Shown here one piece after another: positions 37,178 to 52,923 of a DNA stretch of 64,000 nt. The position numbers were made by a program, and so were the translations under genes. This DNA is from Bradyrhizobium sp. sBnM-33. GTDB taxonomy: Bacteria > Pseudomonadota > Alphaproteobacteria > Rhizobiales > Xanthobacteraceae. Location: assembly GCF_032917945.1 (NCBI RefSeq), contig NZ_CP136624.1, positions 7,006,001 to 7,070,000 on the forward strand, in the 5' to 3' direction. The notes under the pieces are model-generated. The model was not told where the DNA came from. It worked only from the letters and a program-made list of their open reading frames with translations, and made no database searches. The first letter of the stretch is position 1. Each line of letters begins with the position of its first letter.

Positions 37178-37884
37178 GCTGACCTTCCTGCGCCGTACCC
37201 ACTCCGTTTCCTGGCTAGTCTATGCCGGGCGAACAGCCAAGGCTACAGGCCGCAATCAGCGGAGTGTCGGCATTAATCCGGGCATCGATCCGCCCGAGGC
37301 TGTGCGGCGATCAGGACGCGCACGTGAAGATAGAGATCGAGATTGCCCGGCAAGGCGGCACTTTGAGTCATGAGTCCCAATTCTCACGCATAATCGAAGC
37401 AGCGCGGCGCCACCTTCGCCGTGCTCGCTGTCTAGCTTGATTCGCGCCACGGATGCTTGCCAATGCGAACCGTCCTTCCGGATACGCGCGGGTGCTTCCG
37501 TTTGGCGGCATTGCCCGCGTCGGACAGCGAGCATCCCATCCGCAGGATCAGGCGGGCAGCGCCGTCATGGCGGTATCGGCTCGTCTTACCGGGCAGTTGG
37601 GGCCCAGGCACCTTTCGCCGTACCAGCCACCTACAATTGCGCTGATATACCAAGGCCCGTTCCAATCGCAGCAATCTGCCGAATTTTCCCGGCGAGGCAT
37701 CCCGCAATACCGAACTAGTCGTTTGAAACTACTGATGATTTGCCTTTAGTTGCGGTTCCGAGAAATTCGCGCGTTAAGACATTCTCCACCAAACTTCAGC
37801 ACATTGCCTACGCTGACGGCATTCACTGGATCCTACTCCGGCGCCGGCACGGCTGAAATTTCCCGTACCTATTTTGGTGGCGCC
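37178..37884. other. Long intergenic stretch between eutB and a chemoreceptor gene
   Basis: These 707 bases lie between divergent genes. Several open frames of 60-100 codons exist on both strands but none looks like protein of a known family. The eutB promoter (minus) and the chemoreceptor promoter (plus) should be here. A partial B12-box-like string near 37,203-37,218 was considered and not accepted. Confidence 0.5.
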
Positions 37885-39591
37885 ATGGCATCCCGGTTTT
37901 CGCTTGCAGCCAAGTTGTATTCGATCTTCGCACTGGTCGCCGTGCTCGTCGCTGCTATCACGGCCCTGTCCGACTACAACACCCGCCAGAATGCTCAGCT
38001 CACCGAAGCGGTCTCGATCGCCAGCCGCGCCGCGCTCAATGTCGAGCGCATCAATTCGCTGGTCTATGCAGTCGTGATGGAATCCCGGGGCATCTACATG
38101 TCGACGGAACCGCCGGTGGTGAAGAAATACGGCGACGGGCTGCTCAAATTCAACGAGCGTATTCTCGAGGTGGTCAAGAACTGGGAAGCGCTGGTCCAGG
38201 CCGACGACGCCCAACAGTTCGCCACTTTCAAGAAGCGCATCGAACAGTTCGTCGACTTCCGCAAGGAGCTGGTTCGCCGCGGTGTCGAGATCAATGGAGC
38301 GGCGGGGCGTGAATGGGGCGACAACGATGCCAACCGCCAAGTGCGCACCGCGCTGAACAAGGATCTCGAGGCGCTCTCCAAGGTCTACGCCGAACGCAGC
38401 AAGAGGCTGGCCGAACAGACCGACACCAACCATACGATGGCATTTGTCCTGACTTGCCTCGGCGTGTTGGCGCTGGTGGTGGTCGTCCTCGGCGTGCTGA
38501 TCATTTCCCGTTCGATCGCGCGCCCGCTTTCGGTCATCACGGCCACCATCAAGCAGGTGGCCGACGGCGCCGAAGGCATCGAGGTTCCGCATACCGAACG
38601 CACCGACGAAATCGGCGCGCTCGCCCGTGCCATCAAGATCTTCCAGGATGCGATGGATCGCAACCGCAACCTCAATTCGCAGGTGCTGGAAGATTCCAGG
38701 GCGCGCGATGAGCGTACCCGCCACATCGAGGCCTCGGTCGATGCGTTCCGGGAAGCGATCGGCGGCGTGCTGCGCGCGGTCACCGACAATGCGAGCTCGA
38801 TGCGCGGCAGCGCACAGACCATCGCCAGCGTTGCGTCGGATGCCAACGGACGCGCGGTGGCCGCTTCCAGCGCGACCGAACAGGCGTCCAGCAACGTCTC
38901 CGCCGTCGCCAGCGCCGCCGAGGAGCTTTCCGCTTCCGTCGAGGAAATCGGCCGCCAGGTCCGCCAGTCGGCCGGTGCAGTCGAGCAGGCAGGCCAGCGC
39001 ACCGAGAAATCGGTCTCCGAAATCGAGGGGCTTGCGGCTGCGACCCAGCGCATCGACGGGGTGCTCAACCTGATCCAGGCGATTGCCGAGCAAACGAACC
39101 TCCTGGCGCTCAACGCAACGATCGAAGCCGCGCGCGCCGGCGATGCCGGCCGCGGCTTTGCCGTGGTCGCCCACGAGGTCAAGGCGCTGGCCGAGCAGAC
39201 TGCCAAGGCCACAGCCGAAATCGGCCAGAACGTCGGCCTGATCCAGACGTCGACGAAAACGTCCGTCGAAGCGGTCCGAGAAATCGGCAATGCAGTGCGC
39301 GAGATTAATGAGGTGACTTCCATCATTGCCAGCGCGATCGAGCAGCAGGATGCGGCGACCCGTGAAATCTCGGCGAATGCGCAACTGGCGGCGCAGGGCA
39401 ACGGAACGCTGGTCGTCAATATCGGGTCGCTCAGCGACGCCATCGGCACGACGAGCACGGCGGCGGCTTCCGTCCTCACCGCATCGAGCGAACTGACGGC
39501 CACGGCCGAGACGCTGTCGCGCGAGGTCGAGACATTCTTCCGCAACCTGCGCGCCGATTCGTCCGACCGGCCGCGGAAGACCGGCACTTAA
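37885..39591 (+). CDS. Methyl-accepting chemotaxis protein
   Basis: The 568-residue receptor starts [15 protein letters not shown]; a longer frame from 37,750 adds 45 residues without receptor character. There is a first span at about 10-28, a periplasmic four-helix-type sensor at about 30-180, a second span at about 185-207, a HAMP domain, and a cytoplasmic signalling domain. Its tip, [20 protein letters not shown] followed by [14 protein letters not shown], lies near 400. It senses an unknown ligand and signals to CheA/CheW. No C-terminal CheR-docking pentapeptide is seen. The sensor domain has no recognised ligand signature. Confidence 0.92.
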
Positions 39592-39750
39592 GCGGACAGC
39601 ATCTCCGGTCCGCGCCAGTGTGCCAGCTTAGACACGCCAACAGGGCGTTTTTCCTTGGGGCCGTGACAACAGGTGGGCATAATAGAACATCGCCAAACAG
39701 CATCATGTGTTGGGGTCGTAAATGACATAAAAGCGCAAGGGATGAAAACG

Positions 39751-40455
39751 ATGAGTGAAAGCCACATCGAAGGTAAGCAATCTGCATTCGACCCAGCTGA
39801 TATCACCGCGTTGTCGCACCTCTATCGCGGCGAGCTGTACCGTAGCACGGTCTGGCGTACACGCCTCGATGCAACGACCAATTGGGCGGTCCTTACAACC
39901 GGTATCGCACTATCACTTACGTTCAGCAGCGAAACCGCGTCCCCTCTGCCGCTGGTGCTTGTCGGTCTCTTGGTCGTTACCTTCTTATTGATCGAGGCGC
40001 GGCGTTACCGCTTTTTTGATTTCTGGCGCATGCGCGCGCATGTCCTCGAAGTCCAATTCTTCGGGCCAATTCTCCGCGGCGAGGGCGTTCAGGTCGAGAA
40101 TGGCTGGAACGAGATCCTCTACCAGGATTACCGAGCACCTAACCTTCATATTACTTATGCTGAGGCAGTGGGCCGCAGGCTTCGCAATAACTACAGCTGG
40201 ATTTTCGCGATCCAGGTGACCGCGTATGTCGGTAAACTGCTGATCCATCCGGCGCCGGTCGCCTCGGTGCAGGAGTTCTGGCTGCGAGCAGCGATTGGGC
40301 CCATTCCCGGTCAATTCGTCCTGCTGGCCGGACTCGCATTCCACGCAACATGGATCGCGATTGCGATTGCCACATATAGAAGCCGAAGGGGCGCAGGGCG
40401 CGCGCGGCCCCAGACTCCCGAGAGGGATCGGTTACTCGATCTTGCACGAGGATAG
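39751..40455 (+). CDS. DUF2270 membrane protein
   Basis: The protein of about 234 residues (start MSESHIEG at 39,751 with AAGGG about ten bases upstream; Met codons at 39,742 and 39,673 are alternatives) opens with ITALSHLYRGELYRSTVWR. It has two close spans at about 48-90 (NWAVLTTGIALSLTF, LVLVGLLVVTFLLIEARRYR) and hydrophobic segments near 175 and 205. RRYRFFDFWRMRAHVLEVQF and NYSWIFAIQVTAYVGKL are the DUF2270 hallmark regions. Its function is unknown. It follows the chemoreceptor by about 160 bases and is probably independent. Confidence 0.8.
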   Translation: MSESHIEGKQSAFDPADITALSHLYRGELYRSTVWRTRLDATTNWAVLTTGIALSLTFSSETASPLPLVLVGLLVVTFLLIEARRYRFFDFWRMRAHVLEVQFFGPILRGEGVQVENGWNEILYQDYRAPNLHITYAEAVGRRLRNNYSWIFAIQVTAYVGKLLIHPAPVASVQEFWLRAAIGPIPGQFVLLAGLAFHATWIAIAIATYRSRRGAGRARPQTPERDRLLDLARG

Positions 40456-40700
40456 GGGTAATCACGCAAGCGCTGCTGGCAATATCGCTGCGCCCGTCGT
40501 GCATCAGTCTGCTGTTCGCACTTTTGAGACATGCCGATTGGTCGAGCAATGTCCGAGTTCGAGGGCAAAGCGGAAAACATATGCTCACACTGAGTTCTTC
40601 GCAGTTGTGACTTTTCGGACTTGAGGCGATATCGGACCTGAGTCCGAAAAACGCTGCAAAGCGGACGTGGATTCACCAATCTCGATTTTGGGTCTACGGA

Positions 40701-42401
40701 CTACGCCGACCGGACAGTGGCGAGGAACTTGCCGACTTCGGCCTTGAGCCGCTTGTTTTCGTTGGAGAGCAGTTGCGCGTTGGCCAGCACCTGTGACGAC
40801 GCCGTGCCGATTTCGCCGGCGCCACGGTTGACGTCGGCGATGCTGGTCGCGACCTGGGTCGAGCCCACTGCCGCCTGCTGCACGTTGCGCGCGATTTCCT
40901 GAGTGGCAGCGCCCTGCTCCTCGATGGCGGCGGCGATCGCGGCGGCGATTTCGGAAACCCGGCCGATGGTGCCGCTGATCTCCTTGATGGCGTGCACTGA
41001 TTCCTGCGTCGCCGACTGCATCTCGGCGATCTGAGTCGAGATTTCGCTGGTTGCCTTGGCGGTCTGGGTGGCGAGCGCCTTGACCTCCTGGGCAACCACC
41101 GCAAAGCCGCGGCCGGCGTCACCGGCGCGGGCGGCCTCAATGGTCGCGTTGAGTGCCAGTAGATTGGTCTGCTCCGCGATCGTGGTGATCAACCTGGTTA
41201 CGTCGCCAATGCGGTTTGCCGCCTCCGACAATTCGATGATCCGGGCGTCGGTCTTTTGCGCCTGAGCGACCGCCTCGTTGGCGATCCGGTTGGAATTCGC
41301 GACTTGCCTGCCGATTTCATTGACGGAGCTGGCCATTTCCTCGGTGGCGGACGCCACCGACTGCACGTTGCTGGAGGTTTCCTCCGAAGCCGCGGCGACC
41401 ACGGTGGAGAGCTGTTGGGTGGCCGCACTGCTGTTGGTCAGGATCGCGGCGGAATTTTCCAGTTCGGCCGAGGCTGAGCCAACGTTCTCGACGATATTGC
41501 CGACGGCGATCTCGAAACTCTCGGCCAGATTATGAAGCTCCGTACGGCGGGCCGATGCCAGTTCGCGGTTCTTTTCCTCGCGCTCCGCCGTCTCGCGTTC
41601 GGCCTTGGCGATCGCCTGCACCTTGAACTCCTGTATCGCGTGCGCCATCTGGCCAACTTCATCGCGGCGCTCGAGGCCGGGCAACTGAACCTCGAAATTC
41701 CCGGCGGCGAGCTCGCGCATCGCCCGCGACATCGCCACGACAGGGCGGGAAATGCTTCGGCCGATCAGAAATGAAACGATGATGCCGGCGAGCGCAACGG
41801 CCAGAAGCGCAGCCATCAGCGTTATCTGCTGTTGCTCGAGCTTGATCCCGGCACGGGCAATTTCGCGGTCCTTGCTTTCGCTGCTGTGCGTGATCAGATC
41901 ATCGGCGAGCTTTTCGATAACGGCAAAGTTTCGTTCCGCACCCTTGATGAAGATCAGCGCCGATCCGGCATCACCGTCGGCCATCTCGATCGCATTTGTC
42001 GATTGCTTGAGATAGCCCGCAACCGCGGCTTTCAGCTTCTCGAATGTTTCCGGACTGAACCCGCCCTTGATAGTTTCTACGGCCTTCAGCGCGTCCGAAA
42101 TTTTGCCGGCCGCCACGGAAGCTTCCTTGGCGACCTGCGCAATTTTCTTCTCGTCCTTTTCGTTGGCCGCCGTGGCCGCAAGACGATACAGCTTGGCGTG
42201 CGCCGTCCACACCGTCGTGGTGAGATCGTTGGCCAGTTCCGATTGCCGTACCGGCCCGGACACCAGCGCGTCAACGGCGGCCTGATTCGACCGCAACGTT
42301 TGCAGCGCATAGGCACCGAGCCCGATCAGCACGACGATCAGAAAGGCCGGCGCGAGCTGGACTTTCCACGAAAGACCAATGTTCTTGATCCAGCCGAGCA
42401 T
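40701..42401 (-). CDS. Methyl-accepting chemotaxis protein paired with a Cache-type protein
   Basis: The 566-residue receptor has a first span at about 15-33, a helical periplasmic domain at about 35-185, a second span at about 190-210 ([21 protein letters not shown]), a HAMP domain and a signalling domain whose tip [20 protein letters not shown] lies near 400. The family is the Bradyrhizobium-type receptor with a C-terminus ending [15 protein letters not shown]. It starts 53 bases after the stop of a small secreted Cache-type gene on the same strand. That arrangement suggests the secreted protein is a ligand-binding partner. Confidence 0.92.
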
Positions 42402-43092: not shown

Positions 43093-43971
43093 TCACTCCA
43101 CCAGCAGCACGTCCACAGCGACGTTGAGCTTCTGCTTGGGCGATCCGACGATGATGCCATCGACCGGCGAGACGTCGGAGAAATCCCTGCCGATCGACAG
43201 GATGATGTGGTCGTTCTCGACCAGGAGGTCGTTGGTCGGATCGAAGCCGACCCAGCCGAGCTCGGCGCCGCACCAGACTGACACCCAGGCGTGGCTGGCA
43301 TCGGCGCCCTGCAGGCGCGGCTGGCCGGCGGGCGGGATGGTGCGCAGATAGCCGCTGACATAGGCCGCTGGCAGGCCAAGCCCGCGCAAGCCCGCAATCA
43401 TCACATGGGCAAAGTCCTGGCAGACGCCGTGGCGCTTCTCGAACACTTCCCTAAGCGGCGTCGAAATCACGGTGGCCTTGGAGTCGTACCTGAAATCGCT
43501 GCGGATGCGGCGCATCAGGTCGGCGGCGCCCGAGAGGATGCTGCCGCCCGGCGGGAAGCTTGGCGCAGCATAGGCAGTGACCGGCGCCAGCACCGGCACC
43601 AGCGAACTCGCAAAGACGTATCCGACCGGCGAAGCGGGACCGAGGCTGGTAGCCTCAAAGGCCACGTCGCGGATGCGCTCCCAGGGCGGGCTGGTTGCCG
43701 CGCGACCGGGCGCCTGACGCGCGACCGATACCCGTGACCGGGAATCGATCCGCAAATTGCGATGCGCGGTCTCGATCAGCACGCTCTCGGTATGCGTTCC
43801 GAAAAAGTCCCGCCGCACCGTGCGTTCGGCCGGCCGCGGCCGGATCTCGACAGTGTGGGAAATCAATTGCTGTCCGTCGCCGCTCCGCGGCTCCAATCGC
43901 AGCGAGCACCGCGCAAAGCTCACCGGGCTCTCGTAAGCGTAAGTCGTGACGTGACGGATGTCGTAGATCAC
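43093..43971 (-). CDS. Transglutaminase-like cysteine protease/ligase
   Basis: The 292-residue protein has a bacterial transglutaminase N-terminal beta domain (about 1-90, opening YDIRHVTTYAYESPVSFARC) and a transglutaminase core with the triad Cys184 (RHGVCQDFAH), His227 (ASHAWVSVW) and Asp244 (VGFDPTND). It has no signal peptide, so it should be cytoplasmic. It overlaps the ATP-grasp/alpha-E gene by four bases (ATGA) and is the last gene of a three-gene operon. Family members are predicted peptidases or amide-transfer enzymes acting with the ligase partners; no substrate is known. Confidence 0.9.
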   Translation of the reverse strand: MIYDIRHVTTYAYESPVSFARCSLRLEPRSGDGQQLISHTVEIRPRPAERTVRRDFFGTHTESVLIETAHRNLRIDSRSRVSVARQAPGRAATSPPWERIRDVAFEATSLGPASPVGYVFASSLVPVLAPVTAYAAPSFPPGGSILSGAADLMRRIRSDFRYDSKATVISTPLREVFEKRHGVCQDFAHVMIAGLRGLGLPAAYVSGYLRTIPPAGQPRLQGADASHAWVSVWCGAELGWVGFDPTNDLLVENDHIILSIGRDFSDVSPVDGIIVGSPKQKLNVAVDVLLVE

Positions 43972-46478
43972 GCAAGGCCTGTCAGCTTCTCCGGCCGGCT
44001 TGCATGCGGTCCGTGTGGGAAATAATGCTGGCCGATCGCGTCAGCGAGATTGAGCAGAGACTGTTCGAGCGCGAACAGGGTTGTGACATCAAGCGTCGTG
44101 GCCTCCGCTGTCGTCAGCGTCGCCTGCAATGCCACCGCCAACCGTTGCGGCCGCTCGATCAAACCGTGCTCCTTCAGGCTCGGCAGGGCTGCGATATGGT
44201 CGTTGAGCGCCGCGACCTGAAACGCCACCGAGCGTGGATTGAAGGGATCGAGCACCGCAAGATCCCGCACCGGCGCCAGCGCCGGGCCTACCAGGTAGCG
44301 CGACCTATAGGTGATCTGGCAATCCACCAACGTCAGCAGTACGTCGAGGTCTTCCTCACCCGCCTCGTCATAGGCGAACTGCCGGGCGAACCGTACGGTG
44401 TTGATAGCGCGCTCGGCGCGACGCCCCATGTCGAGGAAGCGCCAACCGGCGGCGCGGTTCATGTTCTCCTGCGCCAAGCCAGCAAGGCTCGCCAGCTCCT
44501 GCAGCGTCAATTCGGCGGCGCTGACGATGCTGTCGTCGTCGTCGACCTGCAGCGCAAGGCGCTCCACCATCTCGGTGATGATCTGCCAGGCGTCGGGCGA
44601 AAGCCGCTCGCGCAGCGAACTCGCCGTTCGCTGCACCGATCTCACCAATGAGAGCGCCGAGCCGAACTTCTCCTCGCTCTGCAGCGCCTCGGCGATGACC
44701 CGCGCTGGATTGGTCCGCGTCGCCTGTGAGGTGGCGCCCCAGGTCACGAGAATCCGCTGGATACGCTCGACCGAATGCAGCGCGGTTGATGCTCCCTTGG
44801 CTGGATCGCGCGTCGAGGTGCCGAGCGCACGGATCAGCCGCAGAGTCGCCTCGGCGCGTTCGAGATAGCGGCCGAGCCAGAACAGATTGTCCGCAGCACG
44901 GCTCGGCACCACGCCGGCGATCCGCCTGATCCGCACGGTGTCGGCACCGGGCAACAGTGTCGCCGACGAGACGGCCTTGTCGGAGACCACCCAGACGTCC
45001 GCCGATCGTACTCCGTCGCCCATCGACACTGCACGGGCATCCGCCTTTTCGGCGATCCGGCAGAAACCGCCGGGCAGGATGGTCCACCCTTGTGGAGTCG
45101 CCGCGGCAAACACCCTCAGCACGAACGGGCGCGGCGTGATCCGGCCCTGTTCCCACACCGGCGTCGTCGACAGCCGCACCAGTTCCTGGCCGACATAATC
45201 GATGCCGCGGTCCGTGATTGCCTGCCGCAGCCGGTCGCGCCCGGCTGGCGGCAGCTCGCCGGCGAGCACGGGCGCATGGCTGGAAAAGCCCGGAACGGCC
45301 CGGCCATAGGCACCCTCGATAACGAAATCCTCCAGCCGCGACAGTACTTCCTCGCGCGCCGATTTTTGGCCACACCACCAGGTCGCGATGTGCGGCATGA
45401 TCAAGGTCTCGCCGAGCAGGCGGCGGCACAGGCTCGGCAGAAATCCGAGCAGCGCCCTGGCCTCCAATACGCCGGAGCCCGGCATGTTAGCGACGACGAC
45501 GCCGTTCTTGCGCAGCACGTCGATCAGGCCGGGCACGCCGAGATGCGACGAGGCATCGAGCTCGAGCGGGTCGAGGAAATTGGAATCGACCCGGCGCAGC
45601 AGCACGTCGAGCCGCTTCAGGCCCGCGACGGTGCGGATATGGATGCGGTCGCCGCTAACGGCGAGATCGTCACCTTCGACCAGGAGAAAGCCGAGATAGC
45701 GCGCCAGCGTGGCGTGTTCGAAATAGGTTTCGCTGAAGGCGCCCGGCGTCAGCAAGCCGATGCGCGGCTCGTCGCGGTCGGCGCTGGCACGAAGGGAGTC
45801 GCGGAACGCCTCGAAGAACGGCGCCACGCGCTCGACGTTCATCGACTTGTAGAGACTGGAAAAGGCGCGCGACAGCACCAGGCGGTTTTCCAGCGCATAG
45901 CCCGCGCCCGAGGGTGCCTGCGTGCGGTCGTTCAGCACCCACCAGCGCCCGTCGGGGCCACGGCCGACGTCGGCGGCATAGAAATGGAGATGACGCCCGC
46001 CCGGCGGTTTGATGCCGCAGACGGCGCGCAGATATTCGTTGCTGCCGGCAATCGCGGCCGCGGGCACCGCGCCTTCGCTGACCAGCCTGGCCTCGCTATA
46101 GAGATCGCGCAGGATCATTTCGAACAATTGGGCGCGCTGCGCGATACCCGTGGTCAGTTGTTGCCAATCGGCCTCGTCGATGATCAGCGGCAGATGGCTG
46201 AGCGGCCACAGCCGGTCGGCAGTCTCGCCAGGCGCGCGATAGGTGACGCCGGCCTCGCGCAGATGGCGGTCGGCGGAGGCGAAGCGTCGCTCGATATCGC
46301 CGGGCGAAAGCGCCGCAAAGGCATCGAAGAAGCGGGCCCAGGCCGCCCGCGGCACGCCATCGGGCCCGATATATTCGTCGGGAATGCCGGGCAGCCGCGC
46401 ATAATCGCGCGCCCATTGCGCCATCCGGCGCTGACCCGGGCGGGCCTTGCTCTCCTGACTGCTGCCTTGGCCTGACAT
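43968..46478 (-). CDS. Circularly permuted ATP-grasp and alpha-E domain fusion protein
   Basis: The 836-residue protein fuses two modules that are often separate genes. Residues about 60-500 are a circularly permuted ATP-grasp (DUF404/DUF407-type) with PLIIDEADWQ, GRWWVLNDRTQAPSGAGY, VVANMPGSGVLEARALLGFL and PHIATWWCGQ. Residues about 520-830 are an alpha-E (DUF403) helical domain beginning RAADNLFWLGRYLERAEATL. ATP-grasp ligases join a carboxylate to an amine through an acyl-phosphate; alpha-E domains are found almost only with such systems. A GGGGA ribosome-binding site precedes the ATG, 28 bases after the DUF2126 stop. The substrate is unknown. Confidence 0.9.
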   Translation of the reverse strand: MSGQGSSQESKARPGQRRMAQWARDYARLPGIPDEYIGPDGVPRAAWARFFDAFAALSPGDIERRFASADRHLREAGVTYRAPGETADRLWPLSHLPLIIDEADWQQLTTGIAQRAQLFEMILRDLYSEARLVSEGAVPAAAIAGSNEYLRAVCGIKPPGGRHLHFYAADVGRGPDGRWWVLNDRTQAPSGAGYALENRLVLSRAFSSLYKSMNVERVAPFFEAFRDSLRASADRDEPRIGLLTPGAFSETYFEHATLARYLGFLLVEGDDLAVSGDRIHIRTVAGLKRLDVLLRRVDSNFLDPLELDASSHLGVPGLIDVLRKNGVVVANMPGSGVLEARALLGFLPSLCRRLLGETLIMPHIATWWCGQKSAREEVLSRLEDFVIEGAYGRAVPGFSSHAPVLAGELPPAGRDRLRQAITDRGIDYVGQELVRLSTTPVWEQGRITPRPFVLRVFAAATPQGWTILPGGFCRIAEKADARAVSMGDGVRSADVWVVSDKAVSSATLLPGADTVRIRRIAGVVPSRAADNLFWLGRYLERAEATLRLIRALGTSTRDPAKGASTALHSVERIQRILVTWGATSQATRTNPARVIAEALQSEEKFGSALSLVRSVQRTASSLRERLSPDAWQIITEMVERLALQVDDDDSIVSAAELTLQELASLAGLAQENMNRAAGWRFLDMGRRAERAINTVRFARQFAYDEAGEEDLDVLLTLVDCQITYRSRYLVGPALAPVRDLAVLDPFNPRSVAFQVAALNDHIAALPSLKEHGLIERPQRLAVALQATLTTAEATTLDVTTLFALEQSLLNLADAIGQHYFPHGPHASRPEKLTGLA

Positions 46479-46506
46479 TCCGATTCCCCGAGACCGTCGC
46501 TGCCGA

Positions 46507-49500
46507 TTAGATCAGGAGCGGCGTCCTCAAGTCGAGCGTCAAAGGGAATTCAATTGTGCGTTCCTCGGGCGGCGGCTCGATTCGGCCCGGGGTGTGGCCG
46601 TGATCCTGAAACCGAGCCAGCCGCCGCGCCTCCGCCTCATAGGAATTGACCGGCTTCGTATCGTAGTTGCGGCCGCCGGGATGGGCGACGTGGTAGACGC
46701 AGCCGCCGAGCGAACGGCCGTTCCAGCTATCAATCAAGTCAAATGTCAGCGGGGCGTGGACCGGGATGGTCGGATGCAGGCCTGAGGCCGGCTGCCAGGC
46801 CTTGAAGCGGACGGCCGCGACCGCCTCGCCCGAGCGGCCGGTAGGTGTCATCGGCATCCGCCTGCCGTTGCAGGTCACAATATGGCGGCCTTCGACAAAG
46901 CCGTTCGCCTTGACCTGCAACCGCTCCACCGACGAGTCGACATAGCGCACGGTGCCGCCGGCCGAGCCCTCTTCCCCGAGCACATGCCAGGGCTCCAGCG
47001 CCTGCCGCAATTCCAGCGCGACGCCGCCGTGGTGCACACGGCCGAACACGGGAAAACGGAATTCGAGCTGTGCCTGATACCATTCCGGCGAGAAATCGTA
47101 ACCGGATAGCTTGAGCTCATCGAGCACGCCGAGAAAGTCCTCCCAGAGGAAATGTGGCAGCATGAAGCGATCGTGCAACGCAGTTCCCCAGCGTACAAAC
47201 TTACCCTGCTGCGGCTCGCGCCAGAGCTTTGCGATCAGGGCGCGGATCAACAACTGCTGCGCCAGCGACATCCTGGGATCAGGCGGCATTTCGAGCGCGC
47301 GGAATTCGACGAGCCCGAGGCGGCCGGTCGGGCCATCGGGCGAATAGAGCTTGTCGATGCAGATTTCGGCGCGATGGGTATTGCCGGTGATGTCGACCAG
47401 AATATGCCGGAACAGCCGGTCGACCAGCCATAGCGGGGCTTCGATATCGGGCGGCGGCACATGCGAGAGCGCGATCTCCAGCTCATAGAGTCCGTCATGC
47501 CGCGCCTCGTCGATACGCGGCGCCTGGCTCGTCGGGCCGATGAACATGCCCGAGAACAAATAGGACAGCGAAGGATGGCGCTGCCAGTACAGCACGAGAC
47601 TCCTGAGCAAATCCGGGCGGCGCAGGAAAGGCGAATCCTGCGGCGTAGAGCCGCCGACCACGACATGATTTCCACCGCCGGTGCCGGTGTGGCGGCCATC
47701 GACAAGAAAGCGGTTGGCGCCGAGGCGAACTTTCGCGGCGTCTTCGTACAGGCCGAAGGTGATGTCCACCGCCTCGCGCCAGTTTTGCGCCGGCTGGACG
47801 TTGATCTCGATCACGCCGGGATCGGGCGTCACCTTGATGACGTCGATCCGCGGATCGTAAGGCGGCCCGTAGCCCTCGACATGAACCGCGATCTGCATCT
47901 CCTCGGCGGTTGCCTCCACGGCCGCGATCAATTCGAGATAGTGTTCGATCTTCTCGACCGGTGGCATGAAGACGCACAACACGCCGTCGCGGATTTCGAC
48001 TGAGGTTGCCGTGCGCACCGGCTTGGCCTTGCGCTTTACTTGCGGCTCTTGCGCCGGCCCTGGCGCTTCTCCCGCTCCGCTATCCTTGTCCTCGGCCGCA
48101 AGCTCCAGCCGCGGCTCCATCGGGTCCTGCTCGACGACGTAGGGATATTCTTCCGGCGGAACATGCGGCAGTGATGCCATCGGCAGCCGCAAGCCCAGCG
48201 GCGAATCGCCCGGGATCAGGAACAGATGGCTACGCCGAAGCTGCCAGCGCTCGCTCGTCCAGCCCGAGGCATCGGCATCTGCATGCTGGATCGGCAGCAC
48301 GAACCCTTTCGGCTTGTCGAGCCCTTCATCGAATACACGCGCCATGCGTGATCGTTCTTCGGGATCGGACAACTTGGAGTCGCCGGGATCGACATTGAAC
48401 GGAAGTGCCGCTTCCTTTTGCAGCCAATGCACGGGGTCTTCATAGGCCGGCATCACGTAGCTGGCGTCGAGGCCGAGCCGCTTCGCGATGCCTCCTATCA
48501 ATTGCCGGGCATCCGCGATATCGGCCTCGGGCGCATTCTCGATCCCTGCGATCAGATCGGCATTCTTCCAGATCGGGACGCCGTCCTTGCGCCAATAGAG
48601 GCCGAACGCCCAGCGCGGCAGGCTTTCGCCCGGATACCATTTGCCTTGCCCGTAATGCAGCAGCCCGCCCGGTGCAAAACGCGCGCGCAGCTTGCGGATC
48701 AATTCGTCTGCCAGCGCCTGCTTGGTTGGGCCGATGGCGGCGATGTTCCATTCCGGCGCTTCCAGATCGTCGATCGAGACGAAGGTCGGCTCGCCGCCCA
48801 TGGTCAGCCGCACGTCGTCGCGCCTGAGATCGGCGTCGACCTGCTCGCCGAGCCTATCGAGCCGTGCCCAGGATTCATCGGAGAACGGGCGCGTGATCCG
48901 CGGCGCCTCGCGGATTCGCCTGACGCTCATCTCGAAACCGAATTCGACATTGGCGAAACCCGCACCGCCGGAGACCGGTGCAGCGGAGCGATAATGCGGC
49001 GTGGCAGCGACGGGGATATGCCCCTCGCCCGTCAGCATGCCCGAGGTGACGTCGAACCCGATCCAGCCTGCGCCCGGAAGGTAGACCTCGGCCCAGGCAT
49101 GCAGGTCGGTGAAATCGGTTTCGACCTCGCGTGGGCCTTCGACCGGATCGATATCGGGACGCAACTGCACGAGATAGCCGGAGACGAAGCGCGCCGCGAG
49201 GCCGAGGTGGCGAAAGATCTGAATCAACAGCCACGCCGAGTCGCGGCACGATCCGGAGCCGCGCGCCAACGTCTCCTCCGGCGTCTGAATGCCCGGCTCC
49301 ATGCGGATGACATACTTGATCTTCTTCTGAAGCTGAGCGTTCAGCTCGACGAGGAAATTGACCGTGCTATCGGCCTCGCGCGGAATCTCCTTCAAGTAAG
49401 CCGTGAACAACGGCCCCTGCTCGGAGGTCGCGAGATAGGGCGTGAGCTCTGTCTTGAGATCGTTGCTGTACTGAAACGGAAAGGAGTTTGCGTAGGGCTC

Positions 49501-49785
49501 GACGAAGAAATCGAAGGGATTGACGACCGTCATCTGCGCGGTGAAGTCGACTTCGATCTTCAGCTCAGACGCCTTGTCCGGAAAGACGAAGCGCGCCAGC
49601 CAGTTGCCCTGCGGATCCTGCTGCCAGTTCACGAAATGATTGGCTGGCGTCACTTTGAGGGAATAGCTCAGGATCGGCGTGCGGGTATGCGGCGCCGGGC
49701 GCAGCCGCACGGTTTGCGGGCCGAGATCGATCGGTCGGTCGTATTTGTAGTGCGTGACGTGATGAAGTGCGACGAAGATCGACAC
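46507..49785 (-). CDS. Transglutaminase-DUF2126 fusion protein
   Basis: The 1092-residue protein has an N-terminal transglutaminase module (triad Cys180 in [12 protein letters not shown], His229 in DLHAWAEVY, Asp245 in GFDVTSG). It is followed by a DUF2126 region of roughly 800 residues with [40 protein letters not shown] and [22 protein letters not shown]2126 has been proposed from sequence analysis to be a carboxylate-amine ligase related to the glutamine synthetase fold; the Gly-rich TGTGGGNH stretch fits an active site. It heads the operon; its promoter should lie between 49,786 and 49,890. Confidence 0.9.
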
Positions 49786-49892
49786 GGACCGGAAGCTCCA
49801 GCGGCTTTTTTAAGCAGAACACCGGTTCCGGATGGGATCAAGCACTAACAGTGGGCACCGCGTGCCTGAAGTAAGGGCGACGCCGCCTCCCC

Positions 49893-50011
49893 GTCATTGC
49901 GAGGAGCGATAGCGACGAAGCAATCCATCGTCCCGCTTGCGGCGCTATGGATTGCTTCGCGGAGCCTGTCATCGGGCGCGCATTCGCGCGACCCGTTGGC
50001 TCGCAATGATG
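49893..50011. repeat. Dispersed palindromic repeat, family A, copy 2
   Basis: Begins TCATTGCGAGGAGCGATAGC and ends TTGGCTCGCAATGA, with inner arms GAAGCAATCCAT and ATGGATTGCTTC. An IS110-type element begins within a few bases of its right end. Confidence 0.85.
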
Positions 50012-50085
50012 GGGTGGACGGCCCCCGAACGGCATCGATGTGCCAGACTGGCGATGCTGAGTCGAACCAGACAAGGGGACCGTCC

Positions 50086-51109
50086 ATGACGAAGATTAGC
50101 ACGATTGGGTTGGATCTGGCTAAGAACGTGTTTCAGGTTCACGGGATTGATGCATCGGGAAGGGTTGTGCTGAGGCGGCAGCTCAGGCGGGCTGCCGTAG
50201 TTTGCGGGGTTGCCACCGTGCCTGGTTGGCATGGAGGCTTGCGGGAGCGCACATCATTGGGCCCGGGTGATCAGGCGCTATGGCCATGAGGTGCGACTGA
50301 TGCCGCCGGCCTATGTGAAGCCCTACGTCAAGCGCAACAAGAACGACGGCCGGGATGCGGAAGGTGTCTGCGAGGCAGTGGGCCGGCCGACGATGCGCTT
50401 TGTTCCGGTGAAGAGCGTCGAGCAACAGGCCACGCTGGCGGTTCATGGCACACGTGCCTTGCTGGTTCGCCAGCGGACGATGGTGGCAAACGCCTTGCGG
50501 GCAGCGCTGAGCGAGCTCGGGATCGTGGCCGCGCAAGGACATCAGGGGCTGTGTGAGCTGATGGCCAAGCTTGAGGAGCCGAGCGAAGAGATTCCGGAGA
50601 TGATGCGATGTGCTCTGTTGATGCTGGCGCAGCACTGGCAGGCGCTCAATGCCGATGAACGCGTGCTTGAACGGCAGATCGCGAAGGCTGCCAGATGCGA
50701 TCGGGACGCGCGCCGGCTGATGGAAGTCCCAGGCGTCGGCCCGATCATCGCCAGTACGGTGTTGGCCAAAGTGCCCGATGCGAAGGTGTTTCGCTCCGGT
50801 CGGGACTTCGCGGCCTGGATCGGGCTCACCGGCAAGGACCACGGTACTGGCGGCAAGCATCGCCCAGGGCGTATCTCCAAACAGGGAGATCGTATGTTGC
50901 GCGCGCTGCTGATCAGCGGAGCCAGCGCCCATCTGCGGCAGCAAAAGAGGCGCGGCGTCAGCGACCCGTGGCTGCGCGATCTTTTGGCGCGGCGGCCTTA
51001 CAAGGTCGCCATGGTGGCGTTCGCCGCTAAAGCCGCGCGCATCCTCTGGGCCATGCTGAGCAAAGGAGAAGTTTACCGAGACCGCGCGAGCGCGCCGGCT
51101 GCTGCCTAG
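50086..51109 (+). pseudogene. IS110-family transposase, frameshifted
   Basis: An ATG at 50,086 gives MTKISTIGLDLAKNVFQVHG, the DEDD-nuclease start of IS110/IS1111 transposases, but this frame ends at 50,289 in out-of-family sequence. The rest of the protein is in the next frame from about 50,210 (MPPCLVGMEACGSAHHWARV) to 51,109. It includes NKNDGRDAEGVCEA, the C-terminal serine-containing domain region VPGVGPIIASTVL and GKHRPGRISKQGDRMLR. The shift fits one extra base (or two lost) in the GTTTGCGGGGTT run near 50,200. The copy is therefore probably inactive unless the sequence is in error. Confidence 0.85.
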
Positions 51110-51356
51110 TTGAAGGGCGACAGCCGCCGCGCTCGCGCTCATCCCTATCGGAAGGGCAATTAAGGTGTGATGGCAAATGGTCAGGAAACCAGGATCGAAA
51201 CACTCCGACACGTCATCGCGCGTCACAGCGCGCCGCAATGATTGGAATTCGATCCGCGATCTCCATCAGGGCCCGCGGTCAATGGCCGCTTCTCGAGGCC
51301 GTATACATGACCGCTCCCCGATCCATTGCCGAAGCACCAAAAAGCCCTTGCCGAGA
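51110..51356 (+). other. Right noncoding end of the IS, possible bridge-RNA region
   Basis: These 247 bases lie between the transposase stop and the right inverted repeat. In IS1111-group elements the structured guide (bridge) RNA is encoded in the noncoding end. Short inverted pairs such as CGCGCGTCACAGCGCG (about 51,216) are present, but no RNA was folded here. Confidence 0.35.
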
Positions 51357-51396
51357 GGGGGCCGTCCATACATGACGTTGAGCAGCGTGCCTCCAC

Positions 51397-52923
51397 TCAC
51401 ATCGTAGCTCCAAGGACCCACGGCGCGAATTCGGCGCCGCCGAAGTCAAAACTCTCGCTCTTGGTCGGCTGGCCGGATGCCGTTTTCAGCATCAGCTCGA
51501 AAATGCGCTGGCCGCATTGCTGCACGGTTTCCTCGCCGTCGAGAATGGTGCCGCAATTGACGTCCATATCGTCTTCCATTCGCTTGTACATCGGCGTGTT
51601 GGTGGCGAGCTTGATCGAGGGCGCCGGCTTGCAGCCGAACACGCTGCCGCGGCCCGTGGTGAAGCAGACGAGGTTGGCGCCGCCAGCCACTTGGCCCGTG
51701 GCCGCGACAGGGTCGTAGCCGGGCGTATCCATGAAGACAAAGCCCTTCTTGGTGATGGGCTCAGCATAGTTGAGCACGTCGACCAGATTGGTGCTGCCGG
51801 CCTTCGCCATCGCGCCCAGGGATTTCTCAAGGATCGTGGTGAGGCCGCCGGCTTTGTTGCCGGGGCTCGGATTGGCATTCATCTCGGCGCCTTCGCGCCT
51901 GGTGTACTCTTCCCACCAGCGCATAAGGCCGACGAGTTTTTCGCCAACCTCGCGGCTGACCGCGCGGCGGGTCAGGAGATGCTCGGCGCCATAGGTTTCC
52001 GGCGTCTCCGAAAGGATCACCGTACCGCCGTGGCGCACCAGCAGGTCGCTCGCCGCACCCAGCGCCGGATTGGCCGATACGCCGGAGTAACCGTCGGAGC
52101 CACCGCATTGCAGCGCCACCGTCAATTCGCTGGCCGGCACCGGCTCGCGCTTTACTTTATTAGCGTCGGTCAGCGCCTCCTTCACGAATGCGACGCCAGC
52201 CTCCACCGTCTTGCGGGTGCCGCCGACTTCCTGGATATCCATCGCGCGCAAACGTCCCGCGAGCTTCTGCTCCTCCATCAGCCCGCCGATCTGGTTGACC
52301 TCGCAGCCGAGCCCCAGCACGATCACGTGGGAGAAATTCGCATGCCGCGCGTAGCCGCCGAGCGTCCGCCGCAACAATGCCAGCGGTTCGTTCTGCGTCA
52401 TGCCGCAGCCGGTCTTGTGGGTCAGCGCCACCACACCGTCGACATTCGGAAAATCCGCCAGCGGGTTATCGCCAGTAAATGGATTCTTCTTGAACATGTC
52501 GGCGACGATGCCGGCGACATGGGCGCTGCAATTCACCGAGGTGAGGATGCCGATATAGTTGCGTGTCGCCACGCGGCCGTCGGCGCGGCGAATGCCATCG
52601 AACGTCGCGGGCAGATCGAAGTTCGGCACCGGCTTGACGTCGACGCCGAACGCATAATCCTTGGCGAAGTCGCCCATGCCGCAGTTTTGCGTATGCACGT
52701 GCTGCCCCGGCGCGATTGGCGCTGTGGCAAAGCCGATGATCTGGCCGTAGCGGCGCACCGCCTCGCCTACGGCAATCGGCTTGATCGCGACCTTGTGGCC
52801 GGCCGGAATGCGCTCGACCGTAGTGACCCCATCGGTCACCAGCATGCCCGGCGGCAGGCTCGCGCGCGCGATCAGTACGCCGTCGTCAGGATGCAGGCGG
52901 ATCACGGGTGCCGGGGTGGTCAT
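51397..52923 (-). CDS. UxaA/GarD-family altronate or galactarate dehydratase
   Basis: The 508-residue protein starts MTTPAPVIRLHPDDGV with a GGAGAC ribosome-binding site; the open frame extends further without support. It has an N-terminal SAF domain (about 10-85) and a C-terminal dehydratase domain with TRNYIGILTSVNCS, HKTGCGMTQNEPLALL, GLGCEVNQIGGLMEEQ, LQCGGSDGYSGVSANP and GRGSVFGCKPAPSIK, whose cysteines bind iron. Family members dehydrate altronate, galactarate or related sugar acids; the substrate here is unresolved. It is last in a minus-strand run with the aldolase and the Ldh_2 dehydrogenase. Confidence 0.9.
   Translation of the reverse strand: MTTPAPVIRLHPDDGVLIARASLPPGMLVTDGVTTVERIPAGHKVAIKPIAVGEAVRRYGQIIGFATAPIAPGQHVHTQNCGMGDFAKDYAFGVDVKPVPNFDLPATFDGIRRADGRVATRNYIGILTSVNCSAHVAGIVADMFKKNPFTGDNPLADFPNVDGVVALTHKTGCGMTQNEPLALLRRTLGGYARHANFSHVIVLGLGCEVNQIGGLMEEQKLAGRLRAMDIQEVGGTRKTVEAGVAFVKEALTDANKVKREPVPASELTVALQCGGSDGYSGVSANPALGAASDLLVRHGGTVILSETPETYGAEHLLTRRAVSREVGEKLVGLMRWWEEYTRREGAEMNANPSPGNKAGGLTTILEKSLGAMAKAGSTNLVDVLNYAEPITKKGFVFMDTPGYDPVAATGQVAGGANLVCFTTGRGSVFGCKPAPSIKLATNTPMYKRMEDDMDVNCGTILDGEETVQQCGQRIFELMLKTASGQPTKSESFDFGGAEFAPWVLGATM

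Follow-up and report, generated by a model that had tools for sequence, protein, structure and literature searches.

A transglutaminase, DUF2126 and ATP-grasp operon in Bradyrhizobium as the probable accessory half of a larger amide-bond pathway

Three packed genes of a Bradyrhizobium-type genome, two for proteins with transglutaminase (TG)-like domains and one for an ATP-grasp protein, raise the question of whether they form an amide-bond pathway of their own or part of a larger one. They lie on the minus strand of a 64,000-base window, by which we mean the whole stretch of DNA analysed (bases 7006001-7070000 of a single-contig, 9.18-Mb genome). Gene 1 (window positions 49785-46507, GTG start) encodes 1092 amino acids (aa), with a TG-like domain at aa 1-275 followed by DUF2126 at aa ~278-1092. 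Gene 2 (46478-43968, ATG start) encodes 836 aa, comprising a circularly permuted (CP) ATP-grasp domain at aa ~30-500 and an Alpha-E domain at aa ~525-820, and gene 3 (43971-43093, GTG start) encodes a stand-alone transglutaminase-like protein of 292 aa. The explanation that we favour, and consider reasonably likely, is that this trio is the accessory half of a larger amide-bond pathway, the core half being an operon for ATP-grasp, Alpha-E, TG and Anbu proteins at 4.44 Mb in the same genome, and that the ATP-grasp half of gene 2, being without a canonical ATP/Mg site, would be a pseudo-ligase.

Residues ~30-500 of gene 2 keep the CP-ATP-grasp fold (3n6x, the glutathione/glutathionylspermidine synthetase fold, YgiC/YjfC and Cp1B) but not the metal and ATP residues. 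Alignments to 3n6x and to the stand-alone homologue from its own genome showed that the ExN metal motif is replaced by N183-D-R185, the lysine/glycine-loop motif VVKEVHGSGGYGM by VIEGAYGRAVPGF, and NSSQGGGTKD by SMGDGVRSAD, and that 1 of the 11 canonical ATP/Mg positions (ExN metal motif, ATP lysines, glycine loop) is kept. The Mg/ATP residues were lost in all 115 fused ATP-grasp/Alpha-E proteins compared, which span three phyla; the E of the ExN motif is kept in one of them and the N in none, and the fused protein of locus L153 has 2 of the 11 canonical positions (these counts leave out two partial proteins, that of L028 and the second piece of that of L011). An earlier reading of this DNA, made from its letters only (the sequence-only reading), had taken all triads and ligase signatures to be intact, which holds for the Cys/His/Asp triads of genes 1 and 3 but not for the ATP-grasp motifs of gene 2. 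It had also named degenerate ATP-grasp and DUF2126 sites as what would speak against it, and such degeneracy was found in the ATP-grasp half, and thus in part.

Comparison of the window with eight relatives that we picked gave ratios of nonsynonymous to synonymous substitution (dN/dS) of 0.06-0.22 for the ATP-grasp half of gene 2, 0.04-0.18 for its Alpha-E half, 0.10-0.21 for DUF2126, 0.08-0.13 for the TG domain of gene 1 and 0.10-0.20 for gene 3. By these ratios, the ATP-grasp half is kept by selection and is not decaying. Both ER motifs are present in the Alpha-E half (E540 R541 and E689 R690) and are conserved, with R541 in 112/112, E540 in 110/112, E689 in 110/112 and R690 in 111/112 of the proteins, two short matches being left out. 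A tree built by a quick method from 55 fused and 51 stand-alone proteins (106 in all) sets the fused ones apart by a single branch, with a Shimodaira-Hasegawa-like approximate likelihood ratio test (SH-aLRT) value of 100; two of them, L109 and L110, sit on long terminal branches. A more tentative proposal, to which we give rather less than even weight, is that the fused clade consists of pseudo-ligases of single origin, each a non-catalytic partner dependent on an active stand-alone pair, and that the core and the DUF2126 module together (five to seven genes) make up one multi-ligase machine.

The genome encodes one DUF2126, two Alpha-E and two CP-ATP-grasp proteins. The second set, the core set at 4.44 Mb (L085), comprises an ATP-grasp (472 aa) whose site is intact, an Alpha-E (314 aa), a transglutaminase (281 aa) and an Anbu whose match to Anbu structures, natural as well as designed, reaches E 2e-80; HslV sits elsewhere, next to an AAA+ protein. 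No Anbu was found among the five neighbouring open reading frames (ORFs) scanned along with the trio. A sigma54-type motif, TGGCCCGAGCCTTGCT (L085:9983-9998), precedes the core ATP-grasp gene by slightly less than 60 bases; it is of interest for its place alone, since 55 of 200 shuffles of the 16-kb stretch also gave one or more matches of this kind.

The stand-alone ATP-grasp accompanies DUF2126 in both of the samples that we surveyed, which have some genomes in common. The class sample holds 144 genomes at least 90% complete, in which a protein was called fused when its open frame was at least 798 aa, the loci retrieved having shown such frames to be fused; CP-ATP-grasp was found in 59 of these genomes and DUF2126 in 23. 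All 23 DUF2126 genomes have a stand-alone ATP-grasp and 18 of them the fused protein, and a stand-alone ATP-grasp is likewise present in 22 of the 22 genomes with a fused protein. The phylum sample holds 199 Pseudomonadota genomes, 117 with CP_ATPgrasp_2 (115 over the cut-off) and 60 with DUF2126; here the stand-alone type was called by frame length and score (one case, G307, was confirmed as L149), and it was present in 60/60 DUF2126 genomes among the matches listed. Fisher tests of the association gave p values of 6e-19 and 5e-11 for the two samples, kinship being ignored. DUF2126 lies within 10 kb of a stand-alone ATP-grasp in 30 of these 60 genomes, from 14 of 22 families, and the two genes share a contig in 38.

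Direct linkage was seen in loci that were picked for carrying the genes and show what occurs, not how often. TG-DUF2126, the fused protein, a transglutaminase, the stand-alone ATP-grasp and Alpha-E are consecutive in L091, L092 and L097, and the same genes stand close together in other orders in L146-L149, L151-L153, L156-L158 and L160-L162. Anbu adjoins TG-DUF2126 in L156-L158, and also in L159 and L129, there without the fused protein. On an IncFII plasmid of Enterobacter roggenkampii (L168), the five genes lie on one strand with overlaps of 1 to 4 bases at three of the four junctions, a hint that the core and the DUF2126 module can move as a unit. The window unit is probably not self-contained, given that it co-occurs with, and often stands beside, an Anbu-type core operon. 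As separate observations, loci L107-L110 carry a fused putative pseudo-ligase and a transglutaminase, and no DUF2126 was found in their genomes; in Tsukamurella (L165, 9234-10340), a hypothetical protein gene directly follows the fused protein and transglutaminase genes and is possibly a further member of the set in Actinomycetota.

If DUF2126 is a ligase, as we infer from its fold, it would be the sole likely ATP-dependent ligase within the trio. Model residues ~295-1017 take the glutamine-synthetase fold, so that the comparison with this fold proposed by the sequence-only reading gave a positive answer; DUF2126 is much larger than glutamine synthetase and the aligned identity is 7-15%. Its candidate catalytic residues, which a reading of motifs suggests as putative counterparts of the Glu/His/Arg of glutamine synthetase, are invariant in 78 sequences. 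We regard DUF2126 as a putative amidoligase. The triad of gene 1 (Cys180/His229/Asp245) is intact and aligns with the equally intact triad of gene 3 (Cys184/His227/Asp244); each of the three residues is present in 123/123 TG-DUF2126 proteins, and in gene-3-type proteins Cys and His are present in 108/108 and Asp in 106/108, three short matches being left out of the transglutaminase counts. The nearest solved structures to gene 3 by sequence are TgpA (6g49, E 1e-8) and a Cytophaga putative protease (3isr, E 3e-7). As side observations, some TG-DUF2126 proteins (P0255, P0297, P0319 and P0322) are named 'IMP dehydrogenase' in public sources, probably a spreading misannotation, and stop codons interrupt the DUF2126 genes of two genomes (G106, at locus L131, and G189).

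In the pathway that we propose, the core ATP-grasp with its intact site would act as an ATP-dependent ligase and DUF2126 of gene 1 would add a second amide bond, while amide cleavage or transfer would fall to the papain-like TG domain of gene 1. Gene 2 would be a non-catalytic subunit that binds or presents the substrate, or that associates with gene 1 or with the ATP-grasp and Alpha-E proteins of the core, and gene 3 would serve as a second transglutaminase in hydrolysis or transfer. In the available parts of the respective reports, core genes I35_5080-5083 of Burkholderia cenocepacia are NtrC/sigma54-dependent, I35_5083 being a large transglutaminase protein (PMC5491218), and core genes PP_2685 and PP_2688 of Pseudomonas putida are higher with nitrate than with ammonium (PMC8050072). 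Since core operons respond to nitrogen in this way, our best guess, by analogy, is that the product may be a peptide-like compound tied to nitrogen economy. In another B. cenocepacia strain, ATP-grasp, Alpha-E and TG form one locus, which may or may not be the I35_5083 cluster, and DUF2126 lies elsewhere.

Several observations weigh against the trio as an accessory half with a pseudo-ligase. Within gene 2, D170 is retained (D in 100/115 fused proteins), single canonical residues persist (K at the position of gene 2 residue 388 in 13/115 and of residue 493 in 29/115), and 52 of the 113 columns that are conserved among stand-alone proteins persist in the fused ones, an unselected and milder count than that of the key ATP/Mg columns, which were picked after the difference had been seen; another mode of ATP binding may be compatible with loss of the canonical site. 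The trio and the core operon are 2.6 Mb apart in this genome, linkage is absent from all seven genomes in the sample that belong to the same family as the window (f1), this one included, and the core operon, unlike the window unit, has a sigma54-like site upstream. The trio is also not obligatory: 5/23 DUF2126 genomes of the class sample are without the fused protein, 4/22 fused-protein genomes (G010, G036, G046 and G059) are without DUF2126, and two related loci of 80 (L057 and L077) keep gene 1 without gene 2 within 10 kb downstream. Finally, in the excerpts available for the Yersinia system, the other products of the Anbu operon were not found in a stable complex with Anbu (PMC6376114), which calls for caution over the complex proposed for gene 2.

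Some of these points suit an alternative that we nevertheless think unlikely, namely that the two loci are parallel paralogous pathways of like chemistry. The window unit would then make a product of its own independently of the core operon, DUF2126 being its sole ligase and gene 2 serving as a scaffold within it, and the co-occurrence would arise from genome size and shared nitrogen ecology. The distance between the loci fits this alternative, as do the 30/60 carriers without a stand-alone ATP-grasp within 10 kb, although 22 of these have the genes on different contigs, perhaps partly through assembly, and so does the constancy with which gene 2 accompanies gene 1. It is difficult to reconcile with two samples in which every DUF2126 genome also has a stand-alone ATP-grasp (kinship uncorrected), with the two genes being closely linked in 14 of 22 families and with the four genomes that have the fused protein and no DUF2126. 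We give still less credence to a repurposed gene 2, in which the ATP-grasp cleft would perform non-canonical chemistry, for example phosphoryl or acyl transfer from an intermediate of the core ligase, or hydrolysis: R185 (110/115) and Q187 (102/115) are newly conserved at the old metal site and nine invariants are peculiar to the fused clade (W91, G128, G193, L262, E306, E339, L359, W368 and G370), but no such activity is known, and the glycine loop is variable, with no new conserved motif in its place. Least probable is the view of the sequence-only reading, a free-standing small-molecule or protein-tagging pathway with an active gene 2 ligase, for despite the retained fold, the strong purifying selection that acts on its ATP-grasp half, the 52 retained columns and the tight packing of the genes, the Mg/ATP residues are gone in every fused protein compared, and a stand-alone ATP-grasp is also there in all 22 fused-protein and, among the matches listed, all 60 DUF2126 genomes.

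The gene set that we assign to an accessory half is itself already known and predicted, and is not new. Iyer et al. (2009), known to us through citing papers, reportedly cover the TG-DUF2126 fusion family and the carboxylate-amine ligase superfamily. The loss of the ATP-grasp site, the single origin and the dependence on a stand-alone ATP-grasp are not stated in the literature searched, and the 2009 paper may state part of this. The same trio is presumably represented by Rv2566, Rv2567 and Rv2569c of Mycobacterium. In the part available of an earlier paper (Iyer et al., 2008; PMC2588565), Rv2566 is mentioned and the TG-DUF2126 fusion is described as a carboxylate-amine ligase; gene 1 shares this fusion and the predicted ligase fold, and has nothing distinctive. 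The Anbu operon, in the accessible text of two papers (PMC6376114, PMC5666114), has CP-ATP-grasp, Alpha-E and transglutaminase kinds in common with the trio, which differs in its lost ATP-grasp site, the added DUF2126 and the absence of an Anbu found beside it. The Yersinia Anbu-operon ATP-grasp releases phosphate from ATP, which its authors hold to be compatible with ligation or hydrolysis (PMC6376114); in the same excerpts Anbu had no peptidase activity, which, like the lack of a stable complex, speaks against a simple proteasome-like role. The rlo operon of Pseudomonas also pairs an ATP-grasp with a transglutaminase-like protein, a likeness drawn from its description in the available text, according to which its transglutaminase is inactive and sits in the membrane, its ATP-grasp shares 24% identity with RimK, and it also has retropepsin-like proteases (PMC12239564). 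The view of the trio as a predicted amide-bond operon with no defined product still stands in the literature examined, and the role of Anbu-type ATP-grasp/Alpha-E/transglutaminase sets has been open since about 2008-2009 despite their presence in 117/199 Pseudomonadota genomes. A conserved pseudo-ligase and a full set of five to seven genes would guide the choice of enzyme to assay and of pair to test for binding, and may explain failed assays of single members.

ORF coordinates and Pfam matches confirmed the compact layout first described, with 28 bases between genes 1 and 2 and an overlap of 4 bases between genes 2 and 3. Gene 1 matches PF08379, PF01841 and PF09899 (DUF2126, 1328.5 bits, model positions 3-826 of 826), gene 2 matches PF14403 and PF04174 (CP_ATPgrasp) and PF04168 (Alpha-E, 227.5 bits), and gene 3 matches PF08379 and PF01841; no NCBIfam model matches any of the three proteins. 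The best 120 homologues of gene 1 (of about 8000) and of gene 2 (of 7989) all have the domain set of their query, so that fusion is what is usual for the family. An acidobacterium (Granulicella) has the same trio as well, and the novelty first seen in the fusion and in the two transglutaminases is not supported. Named relatives with 82-91% identity to gene 1 nearly all belong to Bradyrhizobium. In the 80 named related loci that ranked best among the matches listed, a full-length gene 2 lies close to gene 1 in 71, and gene 2 is partial or broken in three (L011, L028 and L038); three are uninformative, the contig ending less than 0.8 kb from gene 1 (L031, L042 and L070), and it was not found in three, L039 (1.9 kb covered) and L057 and L077 (10 kb each). 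A full-length gene 3 is present in 72 of the 80, and the three-gene arrangement is far beyond chance by these loci.

Downstream of the trio (window 37750-42401), a DUF2270 membrane protein gene lies between genes for two methyl-accepting chemotaxis proteins; at a cut-off of E 1e-40, none of the 80 related loci gave a DUF2270 match. Upstream, the six relatives compared lack some 1.5 kb (49881-51398) that here separates gene 1 from an altronate-dehydratase-like gene. This insert has a plus-strand transposase frame (~50086-51109), apparently shifted near 50200, which we take to be IS110-like, and a palindromic-looking repeat (~49890-50010) beside it; the insert may have displaced the promoter of the operon.

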